From contig NZ_KB235948.1 in assembly GCF_000332335.1 (NCBI RefSeq), positions 5,572,625-5,605,619 of the forward strand: 32,995 bases of DNA, written 5' to 3'. This DNA comes from Kamptonema formosum PCC 10802 (GTDB taxonomy: Bacteria; Cyanobacteriota; Cyanobacteriia; Cyanobacteriales; Oscillatoriaceae). A program made the position numbers and the translations under genes. The notes under the pieces are model-generated. The model made no database searches and was not told the DNA's origin. It worked only from the letters and a program-made list of their open reading frames with translations. Shown here one piece after another: positions 16,601 through 32,995 of this stretch; within the stretch, counting starts at the first letter, position 1; each line of letters opens with the position of its first letter.

Positions 16601-17603
16601 AGTGGGGCTGCTCGCCGCCATCGCCGACCAGCTGGCGATTGCCATCAGCCAAGCTGAACTCTACGCCGGCGCAACCGAAGCCGCCCGCGCCGCCAAAGAA
16701 CAAGCCCAGCAGTTGCAGGGAGCGATGAGCGCCCTGCAGCAAACCCAAGCCCAGCTGATCCAGACGGAAAAGATGTCCAGCCTGGGACAGATGGTTGCCG
16801 GTGTCGCCCACGAAATTAACAACCCCGTCAGCTTTATCTACGGCAATGTTGACCCGGCGATGCAATACATTCAAGATTTGCTGGGGCTAATAGATCTCTA
16901 CCAGGAGCACTCTCCCTCCTCTCCAGAAATTGAGGAAGAAATTGACGCCATCGATCTGGAATTTGTCAAGGAAGACTTGCCCAAACTCCTCTATTCCATG
17001 AAAGTCGGGGCTGAGCGCATCCGCCAGATTGTCCTGTCGCTGCGCAATTTCTCAAGGCTGGATGAAGCCCAGATGAAAGCCGTAGACCTTCACGAAGGGA
17101 TAGACAGCACTCTGCTGATTTTGCAGAATCGCTTGAAAGGTAAGGGGGCAAGTGCTGAAATTAAGGTGCTTAAAGAATACGGCGAACTGCCTCAGGTGGA
17201 CTGTTTTGCGGGGCAGATGAACCAGGTGTTTATGAATATTCTCGCGAATGCAATTGATGCGCTGGAAGAGCCTCGGACAGGGGCGGCTGGGGCTGCCGGT
17301 GGCAGAGAAGCTGCCATCCGCATTCGCACCGGCACCCCCGACTCCAATCGCGTGGAAATCCGGATTGCCGACAGCGGACCGGGAATAAAACCCGAGGTTC
17401 GCTCGCGGGTTTTTGACCCCTTCTTCACCACCAAACCCGTCGGTGCCGGCACCGGTTTGGGGCTGTCAATTAGCTACCAGATTGTCGTGGAAAAACACGG
17501 GGGCCAGCTGAAGTGCTATTCTGAACCCGGGAAGGGGACTGAATTTGTCATCGAGCTGCCGGTGCGCCAGAATTACAGCGAACCGCCGATATTTAAGGAA
17601 TAG
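13614..17603 (+). CDS. Membrane-bound sensor histidine kinase: HAMP, four PAS, GAF, HisKA, HATPase
   Basis: The product is 1329 residues. Membrane helix 1 lies at about 7-24 and helix 2 at about 190-217, bracketing a charged helical sensor region rich in Glu/Lys (80-190). HAMP spans about 218-270. Four PAS domains follow at about 275-388, 398-508, 519-635 and 685-803, the first two and the last each ending in an (E/D)I(A/T)ER(K)-type linker. PAS3 and PAS4 have WxW/PED-type PAS_3 features. GAF lies at about 825-1018. The HisKA phospho-acceptor is His1066 (VAGVAHEINNPVSFI). The ATPase has an N-box (NQVFMNILANAIDA, about 1203), G1 (DSGPGI) and G2 (GTGLGL). No receiver domain is attached and no response regulator is adjacent, so it is an orphan kinase. 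The GAF lacks an obvious chromophore Cys-His motif, so a light-sensing role is not supported. Confidence 0.93.
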   Translation: MKLKTKLVSSFLAVASLAAILGILKIEAGKNVKESFSAVSGEITPKLLALQQIKMASFKMMVEANSYALLQGGAGKISGDVKVEEDKEEELESFEAAREDLEKELENFKSLADAPEERKFVQEIEAAKKDFYQAGQTLIQVKAEGGRGPKLVGNKRSLEQAENYFTEVIDRAIEAEIEQLERENEVVASRAGMAIAINAFSVAAVALISGALALILAEKIAKPILEITEAAVKIGRGDLGARVDVETESEIGVLAEAFNQMAESLNKTTVSKGYVDNIIKSMLDALFVLNRDGTIKTFNLAAFLMLRYPEEIDLLGKHVKILFAEEKFLKELDFEESKRNSFLGRKETTLLAKDGQTVPVYFSVSVMRDERGEIEGFVCLAQDITERKAAEAAREESEAKWRSLVENAPDIILTADAAGRIKFLNRVTPGLSARQVIGSSLYDWVPPDCRLPFREIVESVFTTGIAQQLDLAGFGPYSSTSWYSSRISPIQKNGEVVAVTIIATEIAERKRMEEALRESEKRYQLAVRAGKVGVWDWNVGTGEIYLDSNLKAMLGFEPEEIPNRIQDWLKRVHPEDRSAVMAAAKAHLEGRTPDYEIEHRTINKDGSIRWILARGTAIRDGGGKAYRMMGTDSDITEGKQGEDALLQAKQDLEIRVQERTTELTQLLEQLQRESFERQLVAEALSQSQDRLNSILNSLDDVVWSVHATTFEMLYISPAAETVYGLPQSEFFNHPNLWMEMIHPQDRQRVEGMLQKRITAGTTDMEYRIVRPSGEVHWLRSRSRLVCDATGSPVRIDGIETDITERKRAEAALRQSETQFRKQAKREALLNRLASQIRNSLNLDTILETAVQEIHTLLQIDRCLFVWYRPNGLESWKAGSAETWKGLESSDRPSNRRSSKPCNSYWEVVKEAKKPNAPSLLGAYPDQRDCPVIAKLLNREMIRLDDVRKLAEPELQQLQWVSGFSSIAILPIHTPAGEIGLLACGQCCGSRPWRDSEVGLLAAIADQLAIAISQAELYAGATEAARAAKEQAQQLQGAMSALQQTQAQLIQTEKMSSLGQMVAGVAHEINNPVSFIYGNVDPAMQYIQDLLGLIDLYQEHSPSSPEIEEEIDAIDLEFVKEDLPKLLYSMKVGAERIRQIVLSLRNFSRLDEAQMKAVDLHEGIDSTLLILQNRLKGKGASAEIKVLKEYGELPQVDCFAGQMNQVFMNILANAIDALEEPRTGAAGAAGGREAAIRIRTGTPDSNRVEIRIADSGPGIKPEVRSRVFDPFFTTKPVGAGTGLGLSISYQIVVEKHGGQLKCYSEPGKGTEFVIELPVRQNYSEPPIFKE

Positions 17604-17665
17604 GGAATAGGGAATTGGGAATTGGGAATAGGGCATTGGGAATTGGGAATTGGGAATAGGGCATT
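17601..17665. repeat. Short tandem repeat of GGGAAT(T/A) and GGGCATT heptamers
   Basis: Heptamers GGGAATT, GGGAATA and GGGCATT alternate about nine times directly after the sensor kinase stop codon. This is in keeping with the heptanucleotide tandem repeats known from cyanobacteria. Confidence 0.75.
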
Positions 17666-17964
17666 GCTGAGTTCTCGCCAGCGCGTAAATCTTCCCCACG
17701 CCCCATGCGCCATGCCCCATGCCAGCGTTTTAAGAAACCGGGTTTCTCATATAGCAGTATGCACTTAGGGTCCTACATTTCGACCTCTTTTGCACCCCCG
17801 CACTCCTGCTCCTATTGTTCTAACCCATATTACTGCTGGGATATAGACGTAGGCCAGCGTCTGGCTGCCCTGAAGGTTTAATGTCCTAACCTAAATGCCT
17901 ACTGCTATATAAGCAGTCACACAATATTTCGAGCGCGTGTTCAACGAATTTTTCACCGGCTCGC
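17604..17964. other. Intergenic region: simple repeat, hairpin core and MITE
   Basis: The 361 bp between convergent genes start with a GGGAATTGGGAAT-type tandem (17601-17665), followed by a lone hairpin core (17731-17747) and a MITE with inverted ends (17749-17910). No gene is seen. Confidence 0.65.
17749..17910. mobile_element. MITE-like element, 162 bp, with 21-bp terminal inverted repeats
   Basis: The left end ATATAGCAGTATGCACTTAGG and the reverse complement of the right end, ATATAGCAGTAGGCATTTAGG, match at 19 of 21 positions. There is no coding capacity. Related ends occur at 12183-12207 and in the composite at 18948-19118. The transposase that would move it is not in the window. Confidence 0.7.
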
Positions 17965-26803: not shown

Positions 26804-29800
26804 CTACCCCAACCCCCCAACAACCGGCAGCGGATCGGGATTCCCCTGACAAATAAAAGCCGCCCAGTATTTAGGCTCAGTGTACGGGCGACACTCATCA
26901 GATTCTTGGCTCAACTCCTGAAGGCGATTGGCAATAACATCGCTGCGCTGCCTTACCCAGGCAATCGCCTCTGGGGTGAGCCACTTGTCGCGGATTTGCC
27001 CAACGGTTAAATCGCGCAAATAATACTGAGCTTCCTCTAGCGCTTTCGCCCGACCCATGTTATAATCGAATAGATTGTGATAAAATCGCTCCATCAAAAT
27101 CGCGGTGGAAATATCGGGGACACTCCACAGGCTCATTACCAAAGTTTTGGCACCGGCAAGCACAAACGCCCGCCGCAATCCCAACACTCCTTCTCCTACC
27201 CGCCTGTCACCCAGCCCCGTCAGACAAGCAGACATCACCACCAGCTCAGTTGCCGGCAACTGCAAACCGGCAGCCCCTTGAGCGGTGAGCAGGGCGTCTT
27301 CCGCTTCTGGGGGAATTATACCGCCTTTTAACACAGTATTGGCACCGGCAAACGCCAAACCTGAGCGCGTCATGGGGTTGTGTTGGGGGGCGTGTTGCAC
27401 TCGCCCAATCTTCCCAATCTCAAAGGTATCCGCCGGCTTTTGTGGGAGAGATTCCTGAAAAAAGCCGTGGGTGGCGATATGGAGAATTGTGGGCGACACG
27501 CACCGGCTCACTAATGATTTTAGCGCTTTGGCGTCGGTGTGAGCCGGCACGTTTAGGAGTTGGGCAATTCGAGCGCCTTCAATGCCGGTGCCCGGAATCG
27601 GTTTGAATCCTTTGCTTTTCCCTCGCGTTAATTCGCGGCGGAGTTCTTTGATATCTGGGGTATCGGGATGTGAGGAATGGATGGAGCCCGGCGAATGGAA
27701 TTCGCGGCTATACAGACGAAACCCGCCTTCGCGGGTTTCAGGTTGTTGAGGGGAATTTGAGGGGGTGGAATTTGGCTGCGATTGTGTTATAATGCGATCT
27801 GCAGATCGCGCTTTGTCCTCGAACTCGCGCAGGCGCTCCGGGTAGGAGGCTTTTTGCACATAGAATGCCAGCCAAATTAAGCCAGCGGCTAGCAAGCAAA
27901 CCCCGAATGCCGGCACAGCAACGAGAATCACGATGCTGGCAATCACCATAAAGGCTGTTAGCACAGCAATAAACAAGTTTTTATCGATGGGCTGGGGCTG
28001 CTTTCCGGGAGATTGAGGTTGGGGGGGTTGGGGGATTTCCGGGGAGGCTAAATTGAAATCGGGATTGGCGATCACCAGCGGCGCAGTCGGTTGCGCGGGA
28101 ATGGGGAAGTTGAAGCGCAGCACGTCTCGCCCGACGCTCAGGTAGCTGAGCGCATATTCCTCCATCAAATATTGTAAACCATTGGCGGACAAAACGCCAA
28201 ACGGCAAGCAGGTGAGCTCCCCATCCGGTGCGAGAAAAACTTGCTGCTGGGGTTGCAGGTGGGGCTTGAGGGGAGCGATGAGTTTTTGGTACAGTTGTAG
28301 AGAGGCGATAGGTGGCGTATTTACAGAAGGAGTGGGTGCCGGTTCGCTTGCCGGTGTGTCTAAGCCTAAGTCCAAATCTCGCTCGCCAGAGACGGATTTG
28401 CGCAATTCCCGAATCAATTCGTCGGTGGGTTCGGCTTCCCCTAAGTCTATCATGCGCACCTCATCGGGCTGGCTAGCCGAGAGGATGAATGCCAGGTAAT
28501 GTGCCGGTTGCCATTGGGAATCGCCATTCGCCTTGACGGCTTTGAAATTCCAGACATTGAAACGCACGAACTCTACCAGCGCCGCGCCTTTCGGGAGCGC
28601 TTTGGCGATGGCATCCCGGCTGGCATTATCTAATTGCTTTTGCAGGTTCATTTCGGGAATCTGCCGGCTGATTTGTCGGTCGAGTTCATCTCGTTGCTCT
28701 TGCAGTTCCTTCAGCCGGTTTTGGTAGGCGGGCAATTGTTCTGCGGGCGGAACATTCAGAGTTTGGTAGGCAATTTGGTGGTCGAGTTGGCGCAGGTGTT
28801 CGAGTTGGGGGGCGAGGTGCCGGTGGCGTTCGGATAAGATTAGAAGTCGCTGCTGGATGGCGGCTTCTGTCGCCAGGGCTTTCCGCTGCATGATTAGCTC
28901 GAAAGCCGCTAGCACCGCTTCCGAATCGTCTGGCAAGTATTGGGCTACGAGAGATAGAAAAATTTCTACTTGGTAGTAGTTTTGTTGCATGTAGTTCAGC
29001 CGCTGGGTATCGCTGCTGATAGAGAAGATTTGACCGAGGATTTGGGTTTGAATCTTTGCCGCCTCCCGCATCAGGCGCAGCGCCTCCTGTGGGCGATCCG
29101 TTGCGGCGAGGAGTAACGCCAAATTATTCAGGCTTGCCGCATAGTCGGGATGGTTCTCGCCCAGCGCGACTCTTCTAATCTCCTTTGCTCGCACATACAG
29201 GGGTTCCGCATCCGCAAACCGCCCCACTGACTTGTACAGCCCCGCCAAATTATTCAGGCTTGTGGCATAGTCGGGATGGTTCTCGCCCAGCGCGACTCTT
29301 CTAATCTCCTTTGCTTGCACATAGAGGGGTTCCGCATCCGCAAACCGCCCCATTGACTCGTACAGTACCGCCAAATTGTTCAGGCTTGTGGCATAGTCGG
29401 GATGGTTCTCGCCCAGCGCGACTCTTCTAATCTCCTTTGCTTGCAGATACAGGGGTTCCGCATCCGCAAACCGCCCCATTGCACGGTACAGCCCCGCCAA
29501 ATTATTCAGGCTTGTGGCATAGTCGGGATGGTTCTCGCCCAGCGCGACTCTTCTAATCTCCTTTGCTTGCAGATACAGGGGTTCCGCATCCGCAAACCGC
29601 CCCATTGCATGGTACAGCTCCGCCAAATCATTCAGGCTTGTGGCATAGTCGGGATGGTTCTCTCCCAGCCTGACTCTTCTAATCTCCTTTACTTGCAGAT
29701 ACAGGGGTTCCGCTTCCGCAAACCGCCCCATTGCACGGTACAGCCCCGCCAAATTATTCAGGGTTTTGGCATAGTCGGGATGGTTTCCGCCCAGACTGAC

Positions 29801-30811
29801 TCTTATAATCTCCTTTACTTGCAGATACAGGGGTTCCGCTTCCGCAAACCGCCCCATTGCACGGTACAGCCCCGCCAAATTATTCAGGCTTGCCGCATAG
29901 GAGGGATGGTTCTCGCCCAGCGCGACTCTCCAAATCTCCTTTGCTTGCAGATACAGGGGTTCCGCATCCGCAAACCGCCCCATTGCACGGTACAGCCCCG
30001 CCAAATTATTCAGGCTTGCCGCATAGTCGGGATGGTTCTCGCCCAGCCTGTCTCTTCTAATCTCCTTTGCTTGCAGATACAGGGGTTCCGCATCCGCCAA
30101 CCGCCCCATTGACTCGTACAGCGCTGCCAAATTATTCAGGCTTGCCGCATAGGAGGGATGGTTCTCGCCCAGCCCGACTCTCCAAATCTCCTTTGCTTGC
30201 AGATACAGGGGTTCCGCTTCCGCCAACCGCCCCATTGCACGGTACAGCGCTGCCAAATCATTCAGGCTTGCCGCATAGTCGGGATGGTTCTCTCCCAGCC
30301 TGACTCTTCTAATCTCCTTTGCTTGCAGGTACAGGGGTTCCGCTTCCGCAAACCGCCCCATTGCGTAGTACAGCCCCGCCAAATTATTCAGGCTTGCCGC
30401 ATAGTCGGGATGGTTTCCGCCCAGACTGACTCTTCTAATCTCCTGTGCTTGCAGATACAGGAGTTCTGCTTCCGCAAACCGCCCCATTGCACGGTACAGC
30501 CCCGCCAAATTATTCAGGCTTGCCGCATAGGAGGGATGGTTCTCGCCCAGCCCGACTCTCCAAATCTCCTTTGCTTGCAGATACAGGGGTTCCGCTTCCG
30601 CCAACCGCCCCATTGCGCAGTACAGCGCCGCCAAATTATTCAGGCTTGTGGCATAGGAGGGATGGTTTGCGCCAAAGTAAGTTTTTGCCAAGTTACAGGA
30701 TTGTTGCGCCAAAGGGATTCCTCGCTCGTACTCCCCCCGCTCTAAAGCTGTCAATACCTGTCGATTCAGCGACCGAATTTGCTGCAATATTTGCTCGAAC
30801 ATGATGAACAC
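26804..30811 (-). CDS. TPR-CHAT protein: 12 near-identical TPRs plus caspase-like CHAT peptidase domain with internal membrane hairpin
   Basis: The product is 1335 residues. Residues 49-552 are twelve 42-residue TPR units of the kinesin-light-chain type (NHPxYAxSLNNLAxLY, MGRFAxAEPLY, KEIRRVxLGE), followed by a divergent thirteenth (553-594). A helical coiled-coil-rich region (about 610-770) leads into the CHAT domain (about 775-1330). The catalytic pair is His1115 (HIATHGFF) and Cys1196 (MSACLTG). Between CHAT strand regions, residues about 940-990 form two adjacent hydrophobic helices flanked by Pro/Gln/Ser-rich linkers, which is unusual. CHAT domains are caspase-like cysteine peptidases, and TPRs usually sense a partner. 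Known TPR-CHAT proteins include the Craspase effector, but no CRISPR genes are here. The target is unknown. Confidence 0.92.
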   Translation of the reverse strand: MFIMFEQILQQIRSLNRQVLTALERGEYERGIPLAQQSCNLAKTYFGANHPSYATSLNNLAALYCAMGRLAEAEPLYLQAKEIWRVGLGENHPSYAASLNNLAGLYRAMGRFAEAELLYLQAQEIRRVSLGGNHPDYAASLNNLAGLYYAMGRFAEAEPLYLQAKEIRRVRLGENHPDYAASLNDLAALYRAMGRLAEAEPLYLQAKEIWRVGLGENHPSYAASLNNLAALYESMGRLADAEPLYLQAKEIRRDRLGENHPDYAASLNNLAGLYRAMGRFADAEPLYLQAKEIWRVALGENHPSYAASLNNLAGLYRAMGRFAEAEPLYLQVKEIIRVSLGGNHPDYAKTLNNLAGLYRAMGRFAEAEPLYLQVKEIRRVRLGENHPDYATSLNDLAELYHAMGRFADAEPLYLQAKEIRRVALGENHPDYATSLNNLAGLYRAMGRFADAEPLYLQAKEIRRVALGENHPDYATSLNNLAVLYESMGRFADAEPLYVQAKEIRRVALGENHPDYATSLNNLAGLYKSVGRFADAEPLYVRAKEIRRVALGENHPDYAASLNNLALLLAATDRPQEALRLMREAAKIQTQILGQIFSISSDTQRLNYMQQNYYQVEIFLSLVAQYLPDDSEAVLAAFELIMQRKALATEAAIQQRLLILSERHRHLAPQLEHLRQLDHQIAYQTLNVPPAEQLPAYQNRLKELQEQRDELDRQISRQIPEMNLQKQLDNASRDAIAKALPKGAALVEFVRFNVWNFKAVKANGDSQWQPAHYLAFILSASQPDEVRMIDLGEAEPTDELIRELRKSVSGERDLDLGLDTPASEPAPTPSVNTPPIASLQLYQKLIAPLKPHLQPQQQVFLAPDGELTCLPFGVLSANGLQYLMEEYALSYLSVGRDVLRFNFPIPAQPTAPLVIANPDFNLASPEIPQPPQPQSPGKQPQPIDKNLFIAVLTAFMVIASIVILVAVPAFGVCLLAAGLIWLAFYVQKASYPERLREFEDKARSADRIITQSQPNSTPSNSPQQPETREGGFRLYSREFHSPGSIHSSHPDTPDIKELRRELTRGKSKGFKPIPGTGIEGARIAQLLNVPAHTDAKALKSLVSRCVSPTILHIATHGFFQESLPQKPADTFEIGKIGRVQHAPQHNPMTRSGLAFAGANTVLKGGIIPPEAEDALLTAQGAAGLQLPATELVVMSACLTGLGDRRVGEGVLGLRRAFVLAGAKTLVMSLWSVPDISTAILMERFYHNLFDYNMGRAKALEEAQYYLRDLTVGQIRDKWLTPEAIAWVRQRSDVIANRLQELSQESDECRPYTEPKYWAAFICQGNPDPLPVVGGLG
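29156..30667 (-). repeat. Twelve 126-bp tandem repeats encoding TPRs
   Basis: The twelve units are nearly identical at the DNA level as well as in protein (for example, CCGCCAAATTATTCAGGCTT recurs through the block). Differences cluster at a few codons: A/G/E before LY, RA/ES/HA before MGR, AE/AD before AEPLY. This indicates recent duplication or gene conversion. The final divergent TPR lies outside the block. Confidence 0.9.
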
Positions 30812-31170: not shown

Positions 31171-32046
31171 TTATTCTATCACCTTGTAAGTCTTGGAAAA
31201 CACCTGACAGCTTGGCTGCTGCGCCACTTTCTGAAATATCTCGCGCAGGCGCTCTTCGCTAACCACAATATCTCGCGCGTCGGAATCCGGGCGCACCCAA
31301 GACAGTTTTAAGGGCTGTTCCGTGACAATCGCCAGAAAATACTCCTCCCCAACCTCATTGTACCTCAAGAATTTAGCCGGCGCATTCAGCCGAGGGAGAC
31401 AGAGAGATGTGTCGGGCAAAAGCTGCGGTTCTAAGTGATAGGCTCTAGACGGGCAAATACAGTATTTCTGACCGCTCGTCCCCTGATTGACTAGCAGCAG
31501 ATATCCATCCACCGGCAAACCCACTTGCAGCTGATATCGTTGCGCTTTCTTTATAGTAGTCTCCTCACAAAGTTCGATTGCCTCTAAATCCAGACCCCTC
31601 TCAGCATCCCCCACCGGCTGCATCTGCAACTCCTCCAGGGCACAAGTCGCAATTTCCTTGGAAAGCGCCCACCCCCGGCGGGGGAATTCCATCTCCCACA
31701 GCCAATTATACACGATTTCCCACGGGGAAATATCTTGGGGTCTGCCCTTCCCGGCATTTAGTTTGTCCACCGGCACCCCATCCGCTTGCATGGCGTCCGC
31801 AAATGTGTCCCGCAGCTTTTGAACCACATCAGACACCGTGGGAGCAATCGAGCTTTCAGAAAACCCGTCATTGAACTTTTCTTTTATCCTCTTTGCTATC
31901 TTATCATGGTTCTCCTGCCGATGCAAGGGGTGAAAGCGCAGCTGGAAGCACAACTTTTGAGGCTCCGAGTGCCGGCGTCCGGGAAAAAGCTCGCCGGTGA
32001 GCTGCTCGATGAACTTTTGTTGCAGCGCATTGACATTTTCCATCAT
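31171..32046 (-). CDS. Uncharacterised protein with a possible DUF4384-like C-terminal domain
   Basis: The product is 291 residues. Residues 1-160 are mostly helical and charged (KIAKRIKEKFNDGF, SDVVQKLRDTFADAM, SPWEIVYNWLWEMEFPRRGW) and unlike anything I recognise. Residues about 165-255 are beta-rich: QVGLPVDGYLLLVNQG, YCICPS, LPRLNAPAKFLRYNEVG, YFLAIVTEQPLKL. They resemble the DUF4384 pattern, a domain often found with bacterial caspase-like or kinase signalling proteins. That match is by eye only. The gene lies on the same strand as the TPR-CHAT gene, with a 359-bp repeat-filled gap, so co-transcription is uncertain. An AGGAGG lies well upstream of the chosen ATG; the second ATG is one codon in. 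Confidence 0.75.
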   Translation of the reverse strand: MMENVNALQQKFIEQLTGELFPGRRHSEPQKLCFQLRFHPLHRQENHDKIAKRIKEKFNDGFSESSIAPTVSDVVQKLRDTFADAMQADGVPVDKLNAGKGRPQDISPWEIVYNWLWEMEFPRRGWALSKEIATCALEELQMQPVGDAERGLDLEAIELCEETTIKKAQRYQLQVGLPVDGYLLLVNQGTSGQKYCICPSRAYHLEPQLLPDTSLCLPRLNAPAKFLRYNEVGEEYFLAIVTEQPLKLSWVRPDSDARDIVVSEERLREIFQKVAQQPSCQVFSKTYKVIE

Positions 32047-32170
32047 TTCTGTTGCTGGCCTAGAAAGCCATTCCTCCTAACACTGTATCTTACTTTATAA
32101 ATAGACCGGGCGGGACACCGCCTCAGGCAACGCAGATGCGCGGATGGCATGAGACTGTTGGCGAATTAAT

Positions 32171-32227
32171 AGGGGGCTCAAACCCCACCCCCAACCCCTC
32201 CCCGTTCACGGGGAGGGGAGCTTTTTT
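32171..32227 (+). repeat. G-rich REP-like hairpin with following T-tract
   Basis: CCCCTCCCCG-TTCA-CGGGGAGGGG is followed by AGCTTTTTT, giving a terminator-like shape on the plus strand. It lies between the uncharacterised gene and the tandem array, where no plus-strand gene is seen upstream. Confidence 0.65.
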
Positions 32228-32260
32228 AGGGAACCCTTGTCTCCCCCTTTCTGGTCTTTC

Positions 32261-32995
32261 CTCGAAAAAAACCCCCAACATTTTGAGAGCCTCGCTCTAG
32301 TATAAAAGCCCGCGTAGGCGGGCTTTGTTTGTATAGCCGCGATTTCCAATCGCCAGGAACCTACCGATTCTCGAAAAAAACCCCTAACATTTTTGAGAGC
32401 CTCGCTCTAGTATAAAAGCCCGCGTAGGCGGGCTTTGTTTGTATAGCCGCGATTTCCAATCGCCAGGAACCTACCGATTCTCGAAAAAACCCCCAACATT
32501 TTGTAGAGCCTCGCTCTACTCTGAAAGCCCGCGTAGGCGGGCTTTGTTTGTATAGCCGCGATTTCCAATCGCCAGGAACCTACCGATTCTCGAAAAAACC
32601 CCAACATTTTGAGAGCCTCGCTCTACTCTGAAAGCCCCGCGTACGGCGGGCTTTGTTGTATAGCCGCGATTTCCAATCGCCAGGAACCTACCGATTCTCG
32701 AAAAAAAACCCAACATTTTGAGAGCCTCGCTCTACTCTGAAAGCCCGCGTAGGCGGGCTTTGTTTGTATAGCCGCGATTTCCAATCGCCAGGAACCTACC
32801 GATTCTCGAAAAAAAACCCCAACATTTTGAGAGCCTCGCTCTACTCTGAAAGCCCGCGTAGGCGGGCTTTGTTTGTATAGCCGCGATTTCCAATCGCCAG
32901 GAACCTACCGATTCTCGAAAAAAACCCCAACATTTTGAGAGCCTCGCTCTACTCTGAAAGCCCGCGTAGGCGGGCTTTGTTTGTATAGCCGCGAT
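32261..32995. repeat. Tandem array of about 109-bp units, each with three hairpins (six full units plus a partial, continues past the window)
   Basis: The unit starts are at 32261, 32370, 32480, 32589, 32697, 32805 and 32914, giving lengths of 109, 110, 109, 108, 108 and 109 and a final 82-bp fragment cut by the edge. Each unit has an A6-8/C3-5 tract, hairpin 1 (AGAGC-CTC-GCTCT), hairpin 2 (AAAGCCCGC-GTAG-GCGGGCTTT, then TTTG), hairpin 3 (GCGATT-TCC-AATCGC) and the tail CAGGAACCTACCGATT. Units 1-2 have CTAGTATAAAAG where units 3-7 have CTACTCTGAAAG. Unit 4 alone has altered hairpin 2 sequence. Unit length is not a multiple of three and varies, so the array is not coding. There are no unique spacers, so it is not a CRISPR array. 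Confidence 0.92.

Follow-up and report, generated by a model that had tools for sequence, protein, structure and literature searches.

The tandem array at positions 32261..32995 (plus strand) of the window, the whole 32,995-bp stretch of DNA that was analysed, is read here as a recent satellite: a MITE bearing a REPIN fragment was inserted, its cargo was amplified in place, and the core of the repeated unit is tied to Y1 transposases of subclass 1.2 (TnpA 1.2). The probability of this reading is put at about 0.86. TRF returned the array with a period of 109, 6.8 copies, 96% matches and a score of 1337, within exactly the bounds given for a ~109-bp unit in a first-pass annotation of the letters, and the noncoding character assigned to it there was supported. 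Rightward extension of the sequence, as advised in that annotation, showed that the units go on past the window to about G000:C3:5606410 (about L021:2811), across a 100-N assembly gap, and are followed by a plus-strand 118-aa frame with no Pfam match. The window stops at this gap, which lies in contig C3 of the 8.6-Mb genome. A total of 13 unit starts were visible on its two sides, and the size of the array is given as at least 13 units since the 100 N interrupt the assembly, 12 units being free of N.

The 12 N-free units showed a mean pairwise identity of 94% (gaps counted), and the array holds two main unit types, CTAGTATA and CTACTCTG, in interleaved order. It is therefore a set of near-identical head-to-tail units at one locus, as in satellites and minisatellites. 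Variation in length, attributed earlier to the A/C tract alone, was also found near ATTTT, where the unit alignment has an extra T in two units, and in unit 4, which carries indels within hairpin 2 and within the TTTGTTTG tail. A CRISPR array was ruled out, the units being contiguous and without unique spacers, and no tRNA was found in a search of the window. The flanking genes are divergent, both being transcribed away from the array, and the left one (DUF4384) occupies 31171..32046 on the minus strand.

The origin of the array was apparent from its outer boundaries. A 7-bp target-site duplication, ATGGCAT at 32144..32150 on the left, is repeated as ATAGCAT at L021:2824-2830 on the right, and immediately inside it stand 16-bp TIRs, GAGACTGTTGGCGAAT at 32151..32166 (plus strand) and ATTCGCCAACAGCTTC at L021:2808-2823. 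The left part of the MITE (32151..32260, plus strand) is single at the array locus and also stands beside units elsewhere: this ~110-bp part recurs at nine further distinct loci as matches of 107–117 bp with 83–91% identity (ten rows, of which two are one place), and in all nine the match stops where a unit or unit fragment starts. In the same-genus genome G002 the neighbours of the array lie near each other, their products being 94% identical for a gene which we take to be pdxA, from its protein sequence, and 92% identical for the DUF4384 gene. BLAST of both regions showed that L021:1176-2823 of the own genome (G000) is without a counterpart at the orthologous locus, where the flanking BLAST blocks overlap by exactly 7 bases. 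The single copy of these bases in G002 marks an empty site, and the same 7 bases stand on both sides of the insert in G000 (ATGGCAT and ATAGCAT). The TIRs and the target-site duplication, with the empty site in G002, mark the insert at L021:1176-2823 as MITE-like. Because of them, insertion of the MITE with its REPIN fragment is placed after the split from G002, and the amplification of the cargo after the insertion. The ~109-bp unit was expanded in place, most likely by replication slippage or unequal recombination with the help of the hairpins. Of the options named in the first-pass annotation, very recent amplification and a satellite-like repeat were both borne out by the empty site in G002, the array being a young satellite derived from a mobile repeat. 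Extra sequence is also present in G002 ahead of the 118-aa frame, separate from the MITE insertion.

Among the fetched loci, 11 other elements with this TIR pair were found, of 218–408 bp, and a single core copy was contained in 10 of them, the exception being L031 with two copies in opposite orientation; a thirteenth listed TIR pair, in L139, looks like chance. In several core copies (L023, L026, L107 and others) the MITE with the TIR GAGACTGTTGGCGAAT stands in the loop of hairpin 3, with TTTCCAA or TTTCAA as the duplication, as if the outer MITE were targeting hairpin 3. In addition, an array-type unit fragment of the GTATA type at L022:1166-1297 (G000:C3 976365-976496) borders on a further 100-N assembly gap, which may conceal a second array.

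The core element consists of hairpin 2, a linker and hairpin 3, and in unit 1 it covers 32306..32354 on the plus strand (covariance model R1, 76.8 bits; unit 1 is in the R1 seed). The remaining array units also matched R1. A solitary core copy with 74.8 bits was found at 27690..27738 on the minus strand, inside the TPR-CHAT frame 26804-30811, which stays open. This copy corresponds to residues ~1024–1040 of the frame, within a CHAT match (839–1324) that exceeds the 289-position model in length, and the TPR part of the same gene contains a 126-bp tandem repeat of 12.3 copies at 29117-30667. Other features of the window were overlapping minus-strand frames at 1-1129 with a MerR-type helix-turn-helix and TnpB-like sequence, presumably an IS607-type element (both the IS607 and the TnpB names being our own attribution), and a run of the heptamer GGAATTG at 17597-17666, which we take to be STRR-like.

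The core is widely dispersed. BLAST of one unit against the own genome gave at least 69 matches, array units included, this count being a lower bound in which the best 40 of 286 first candidates were scored; many dispersed copies span unit positions 1–22 to 97–104. When 40 genomes were searched with the unit, the long matches among those listed came from the genus only (G000, G001 and G002), and in the genomes outside the genus the listed matches started at unit position 34 or later. The exact core pattern was found 209 times in the own genome, array units included, and its reversed form not at all; the pattern was present in 21 of 100 genomes of the order, the own genome counted. The covariance-model search of genomes that had been called for found dispersed copies as well: in an even 1.6-Mb sample R1 detected 111 copies in 32 of 80 pieces, 110 after removal of one overlap. 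These formed 47 sites, three at piece ends, and 35 of the other 44 lay outside crude ORFs (at least 90 aa), within which 18465 of 24000 random positions fell. The tetranucleotide preceding hairpin 3 in the 110 sampled copies was ATAG in 73, GTAG in 24 and CTAG in one, none being recognised in 12. Like REP/REPIN sequences, the core exists as numerous hairpin copies outside genes, frequently arranged as inverted pairs. In addition, TTGGGCGAAGCCCTTCCCGAAGGG and its variants, a repeat of ~24 bp, was seen nested in the loop of hairpin 2 in L022, L027, L040, L144 and L153.

Divergent core neighbours within 400 bp numbered 31. In 17 pairs the spacing was 20–21 bp, and such pairs represent a REPIN-like element with two unlike arms; in eight of the 31 it was 89 bp, the spacing found in the region of L120 with the 217-bp array. 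The 109-bp unit aligns to the right half of the REPIN, with a shortened left hairpin, the spacer (hairpin 1) and a complete right end, and is best read as a left-truncated REPIN-like repeat. These alignments support the view that a truncated REPIN may be the cargo of the MITE. The core element also recurs in tandem arrays at four further loci, with periods of their own (147 bp × 9.6 copies; 155 bp × 2.4; 181 bp × 3.3; 217 bp × 2.1 and 3.3). Some filamentous cyanobacteria carry hundreds of small hairpin repeats whose source and spread are mostly unexplained, and the genome analysed here is one such case; the core sequence strings themselves gave no match in the text of the open-licence literature.

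In unit 1, hairpin 1 (AGAGC-CTC-GCTCT) lies at 32286..32298, hairpin 2 (AAAGCCCGC-GTAG-GCGGGCTTT) at 32305..32326, and hairpin 3 (GCGATT-TCC-AATCGC), just past ATAG, at 32339..32353, all on the plus strand. The centroid fold of this unit contained all three hairpins, hairpin 1 with 5 bp, hairpin 3 with 6 bp and hairpin 2 with an extended base; in the minimum-energy fold of a CTCTG-type unit hairpin 1 was absent, whereas hairpins 2 and 3 were present with 9 and 6 bp. Equally good folding was obtained in 2 of 200 shuffles for unit 1 and in 2 of 200 for the CTCTG-type unit. Inside the array, 7 of 40 stem columns were variable (hairpin 1, 1/10; hairpin 2, 5/18; hairpin 3, 1/12) versus 18 of 69 other columns (A/C tract, 5/16; others, 13/53), and on these counts an inference of selection on structure from the array alone was rejected.

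Conservation was next compared in a genus alignment of 28 copies, composed of two array units and 26 of 28 dispersed copies (two near-duplicates were omitted) that had been obtained from 46 BLAST pieces by a length and coverage filter. Hairpin 1 showed 16 broken cells and no two-sided change, and was rejected as a conserved structure. Hairpins 2 and 3 were invariant, except that in hairpin 2 the two outer A-T pairs were disrupted, one in 2 and the other in 22 of the 28 rows; the stem of hairpin 2 is therefore mostly 7 bp outside the array. In the wider family, represented by 20 copies chosen by hand from several cyanobacteria, the stems of hairpins 2 and 3 had 22 two-sided cells in four pairs (shuffled mean, 6.7 cells) and no one-sided changes, and 95.5% of cells were paired versus 88.8% after shuffling; the number of pairs with a two-sided change, four, was not in excess of the shuffles (mean 3.0). 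The covariance test proposed in the annotation thus gave compensatory changes for hairpins 2 and 3 in the wider family and none for hairpin 1. Folding is therefore under selection in the element family: the proposal of selection on structure holds for hairpins 2 and 3 of the dispersed copies, and not for the array taken alone. Among 104 distinct copies, comprising many sequences, the stems contained 1278 Watson-Crick, 23 G-T and 51 mismatched pairs, the best stem being chosen per copy, which biases the counts toward pairing. The scarcity of G-T pairs would be a better fit to folded DNA than to RNA.

This bears on the proposal that the array is a multi-copy sRNA locus resembling NsiR1, with a promoter in each unit and an end at hairpin 2. 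Units do fold better than most shuffled sequences, and hairpin 2 with its T-rich stretch is terminator-like in 12 visible units, the stem being complete in 11. Against this, a sigma-70-type consensus scan found no promoter-like site in any visible unit, the single sigma-70-like site of the array region lying outside the array (1.4 expected), and no Rfam match at gathering score was obtained in the window. Moreover, the array is missing at the orthologous locus of the same-genus genome, the core is common to arrays of five different periods, and few G-T pairs occur among the stem changes, though RNA would tolerate them. With promoter scan, Rfam and locus conservation all negative, the sRNA proposal was dropped as extremely improbable.

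The resemblance of hairpin 2 to a Rho-independent terminator was confirmed as a match to the pattern, and it raises the alternative that dispersed hairpins stop intergenic transcription and that the array insulates its two divergent genes. Terminator-like sites numbered 15 in the region versus 3.0 expected, core copies of the 1.6-Mb sample were mostly intergenic, and cyanobacteria are described as being without Rho in the abstract of PMC13289151. However, placement did not follow transcription: isolated copies between co-directional genes (n = 12) had the same orientation in six cases and the opposite one in six, and convergent sites made up 4 of 35 intergenic sites versus 1032 of 5273 random intergenic positions, so that no preference for orientation or for convergent genes was seen (small numbers and crude ORFs of at least 90 aa). 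In addition, a G interrupts the T tract (TTTGTTTG), and the array lies upstream of both neighbour genes. A terminator or insulator function is accordingly considered very unlikely, and of the terminator-like character of hairpin 2 the pattern is kept and the placement is not. The reading of the array as an amplified MITE cargo is retained, with the hairpins presumably maintained by the family as folded DNA ends rather than for RNA from the array, which itself probably has no dedicated function.

Eight Y1_Tnp matches were found in the own genome. Two sister Y1 genes (L044 and L045) lie within core clusters, and the other six have no core copy within 1.5 kb. The L044 and L045 transposases are IS200-like by NCBIfam, for which a score of 76.2 bits with the IS200 model was recorded (cut-off 55), and membership of RAYT (TnpA_REP) was rejected, the NCBIfam RAYT model giving 23.7 and 20.9 bits at a cut-off of 80. 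Both proteins carry HuH, WQ and Y---Q--HH. In 19 chosen proteins Y115, Q119, H123, Q96 and both HuH histidines were invariant, and H122 and W95 were conserved in at least 90%. Judged by motif and distribution, the core-associated transposase would be a TnpA_Y1 of subclass 1.2; the 20 scanned loci came from Cyanobacteria, Bacteroidetes, Chloroflexi, Armatimonadetes, Abditibacteria, Kapaibacterium and one other bacterium. For this subclass Table 1 of Quentin et al. 2018 (PMC6006769) has the entry 'no' under REP, and among the titles and abstract openings listed in searches of open-licence papers none paired subclass 1.2 with hairpin repeats. Near these genes two further repeats were seen: a CRISPR-like array (repeat GTTTCCATTAATTCGACTTCCGGGCGGAAGCCAAG, differing spacers) at ~2839-3345 of L044, beside the transposase and core cluster, and 22-bp tandem runs of CCCGGCGTTTTACCGATAGATA with 217-bp arrays near a transposase gene in L183 (G000:C3:1829500-1837500).

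The association of the core with tnpA was examined at relatives' loci outside the R1 seed (L186-L195; 10 genomes, one locus each, protein at least 58% identical; the second gene copy of G061 and the pieces of G085 lie outside this set). Outward-pointing core copies flank tnpA on both sides, at 100 bp or less in 9 of the 10; in L187 they stand, also outward-pointing, 32 and 245 bp from tnpA, and the bracket is unaffected in L192 and L193, where tnpA is on the minus strand. At the named loci L079-L085 (five cyanobacteria, one Chloroflexi MAG and one Abditibacteria MAG) a 5' core copy was present within 64 bp in 7/7 and a 3' copy within 110 bp in 6/7, the contig of L080, which lacks the 3' copy, stopping 96 bp past tnpA; five of these loci are in the R1 seed, their bracket having first been found by BLAST with own-genome copies. 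An R1 bracket was absent in 12 of the 20 scanned loci (L086, L087 and L089-L098), and L088, from an Armatimonadetes MAG, had weak partial R1 matches on both sides. The core pattern was present in 10 of 11 genomes with a close tnpA versus 11 of 89 without (Fisher 2e-7), and with the own genome excluded in 9 of 10 (Fisher 9e-7), both tests ignoring phylogeny. A plasmid search gave 391 records, all less than 60% identical to the transposase, and short core matches were found in three plasmid records. The core is paired with tnpA and dispersed in these genomes; no instance of the core itself having moved was observed, and it would be moved in trans by the subclass 1.2 TnpA.

Alternatively, the core could spread by different means (host repair, gene conversion or some other Y1 enzyme), the repeats having carried tnpA and hence bracketing it. 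The core does persist in the 11 of 89 genomes without a close tnpA, and the same-genus genomes are among them: G001 (66% complete) has 6 matches and G002 has 47, neither with a match to the core-associated tnpA at 1e-10, so that in these two genomes the core must either have moved in the past or be moved by a different enzyme. The brackets of the own genome are also degraded, the upstream copy being weak in L044 (23.8 bits) and missing in L045, and the first downstream plus-strand copies standing at 277 bp (L044) and 359 bp (L045). On the other side, the bracket has a fixed orientation in cyanobacteria, in a Chloroflexi MAG and in an Abditibacteria MAG, and ends of the same plan, specific to their own transposases, occur in a more distant clade, which makes spread by another route rather unlikely as compared with movement by TnpA 1.2.

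That second clade was recognized among 24 loci intended as controls, 19 of relatives (L196-L214, 29–43% identity) and five own-genome Y1 genes. A plain inverted-repeat test was passed by 20 of 32 subclass-1.2-like loci versus 10 of 24 intended controls, and most Bacteroidetes loci had no clear inverted ends, L095 and L096 excepted. The Y motif was found in 11 of 13 readable relatives' loci of the control set, being absent from L213 and L214, and because of this motif most of the readable control relatives represent a second clade of the subclass and no negative control. The own-genome loci L043, L046 and L047 are without the Y motif, and L047 nevertheless has an inverted repeat. Model R1 gave no two-sided bracket in the 19 loci L196-L214, although L198 and L203 had distant matches and L199, L201 and L202 had weak matches. 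Several second-clade genes are flanked by inverted two-hairpin repeats of different sequence and of the same plan as the core. An end pattern derived from five of these loci occurred at least three times in 12 of 18 genomes with the gene versus 1 of 18 chosen without it, and in 7 of 13 when the five source genomes were excluded (Fisher 0.004). Among the matches listed, G078 and G038 contained many second-clade minus-plus pairs with starts ~56–62 bp apart.

In the sequence of events proposed here, the two-hairpin sequence (hairpin 2, RTAG linker, hairpin 3) forms the inverted ends around a subclass 1.2 tnpA, and solitary copies and REPIN-like divergent pairs with a 20–21-bp spacer are dispersed genome-wide. 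A REPIN minus most of its left arm would have become the cargo of a separate MITE of ~220–270 bp with 16-bp TIRs. Once G002 had split off, this MITE was inserted between the two divergent genes in the lineage of the own genome, as the empty site and the 7-bp duplication show, and the ~109-bp cargo unit was finally multiplied to at least 13 copies. The hairpins would be kept in the family as folded DNA ends, RNA from the array not being the reason. More generally, we consider it likely that subclass 1.2 Y1 transposases have a cognate REP-like system independent of RAYTs, with clade-specific, dispersed and satellite-prone two-hairpin ends. As part of the same joint proposal, the inner hairpin would adjoin the gene and the outer one would stand beyond a TAG-containing linker, and across cyanobacteria the system would be dispersed, both as single ends and as REPINs with a short spacer, in copy numbers from tens to hundreds.

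As a locus the array is ordinary, and the pairing of the repeat with TnpA subclass 1.2 is the part worth follow-up: one hairpin family, and a second by the same logic, is tied to a subclass recorded without a REP partner. Since the repeat family is tied to one transposase subclass, a single purified protein and short oligonucleotides would suffice to test the pairing. The array with its empty site shows how a mobile repeat can become a bacterial satellite, and cautions that not every tandem hairpin array is an RNA locus.

Among known systems, NsiR1 consists of tandem non-coding sRNA units in a cyanobacterium; unlike NsiR1, the array is without a detected promoter, is missing at the orthologous locus and has a unit derived from a dispersed repeat. 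Elhai and colleagues are said to have described, in 2008, small dispersed mobile repeats of cyanobacteria. The element at the array locus is like other MITEs in being short and non-coding, with TIRs, a target duplication, several copies and an empty site, and unlike usual MITEs in that its REPIN-fragment cargo has turned satellite. With REP/REPIN sequences and RAYTs the core shares short hairpins, perhaps also the RTAG near the foot, a mostly extragenic location, many copies, inverted pairs and the bracketing of a lone Y1 transposase gene. Unlike in RAYT systems, the transposase is IS200-like and of subclass 1.2, each core-type end has two hairpins, and ATAG is commoner than GTAG. In Di Nocera et al. 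2013 (PMC3733652), TIRtrons are genes for Y1 transposases that lie between inverted repeats, the repeats themselves constituting families, and GTAG families (GTAG-12, -15 and -16 among them) occur in filamentous cyanobacteria; the core repeats likewise flank a Y1 gene. The transposases agree with the published account of TnpA_Y1 subclass 1.2 (PMC6006769) in Y---Q--HH, HuH and WQ, in few copies per genome and in occurrence in Cyanobacteria and Bacteroidetes; they have 137–141 aa, the subclass median in the published table being 148. In contrast to the 'no' entered there for REP, their close relatives studied here have dispersed inverted two-hairpin ends.
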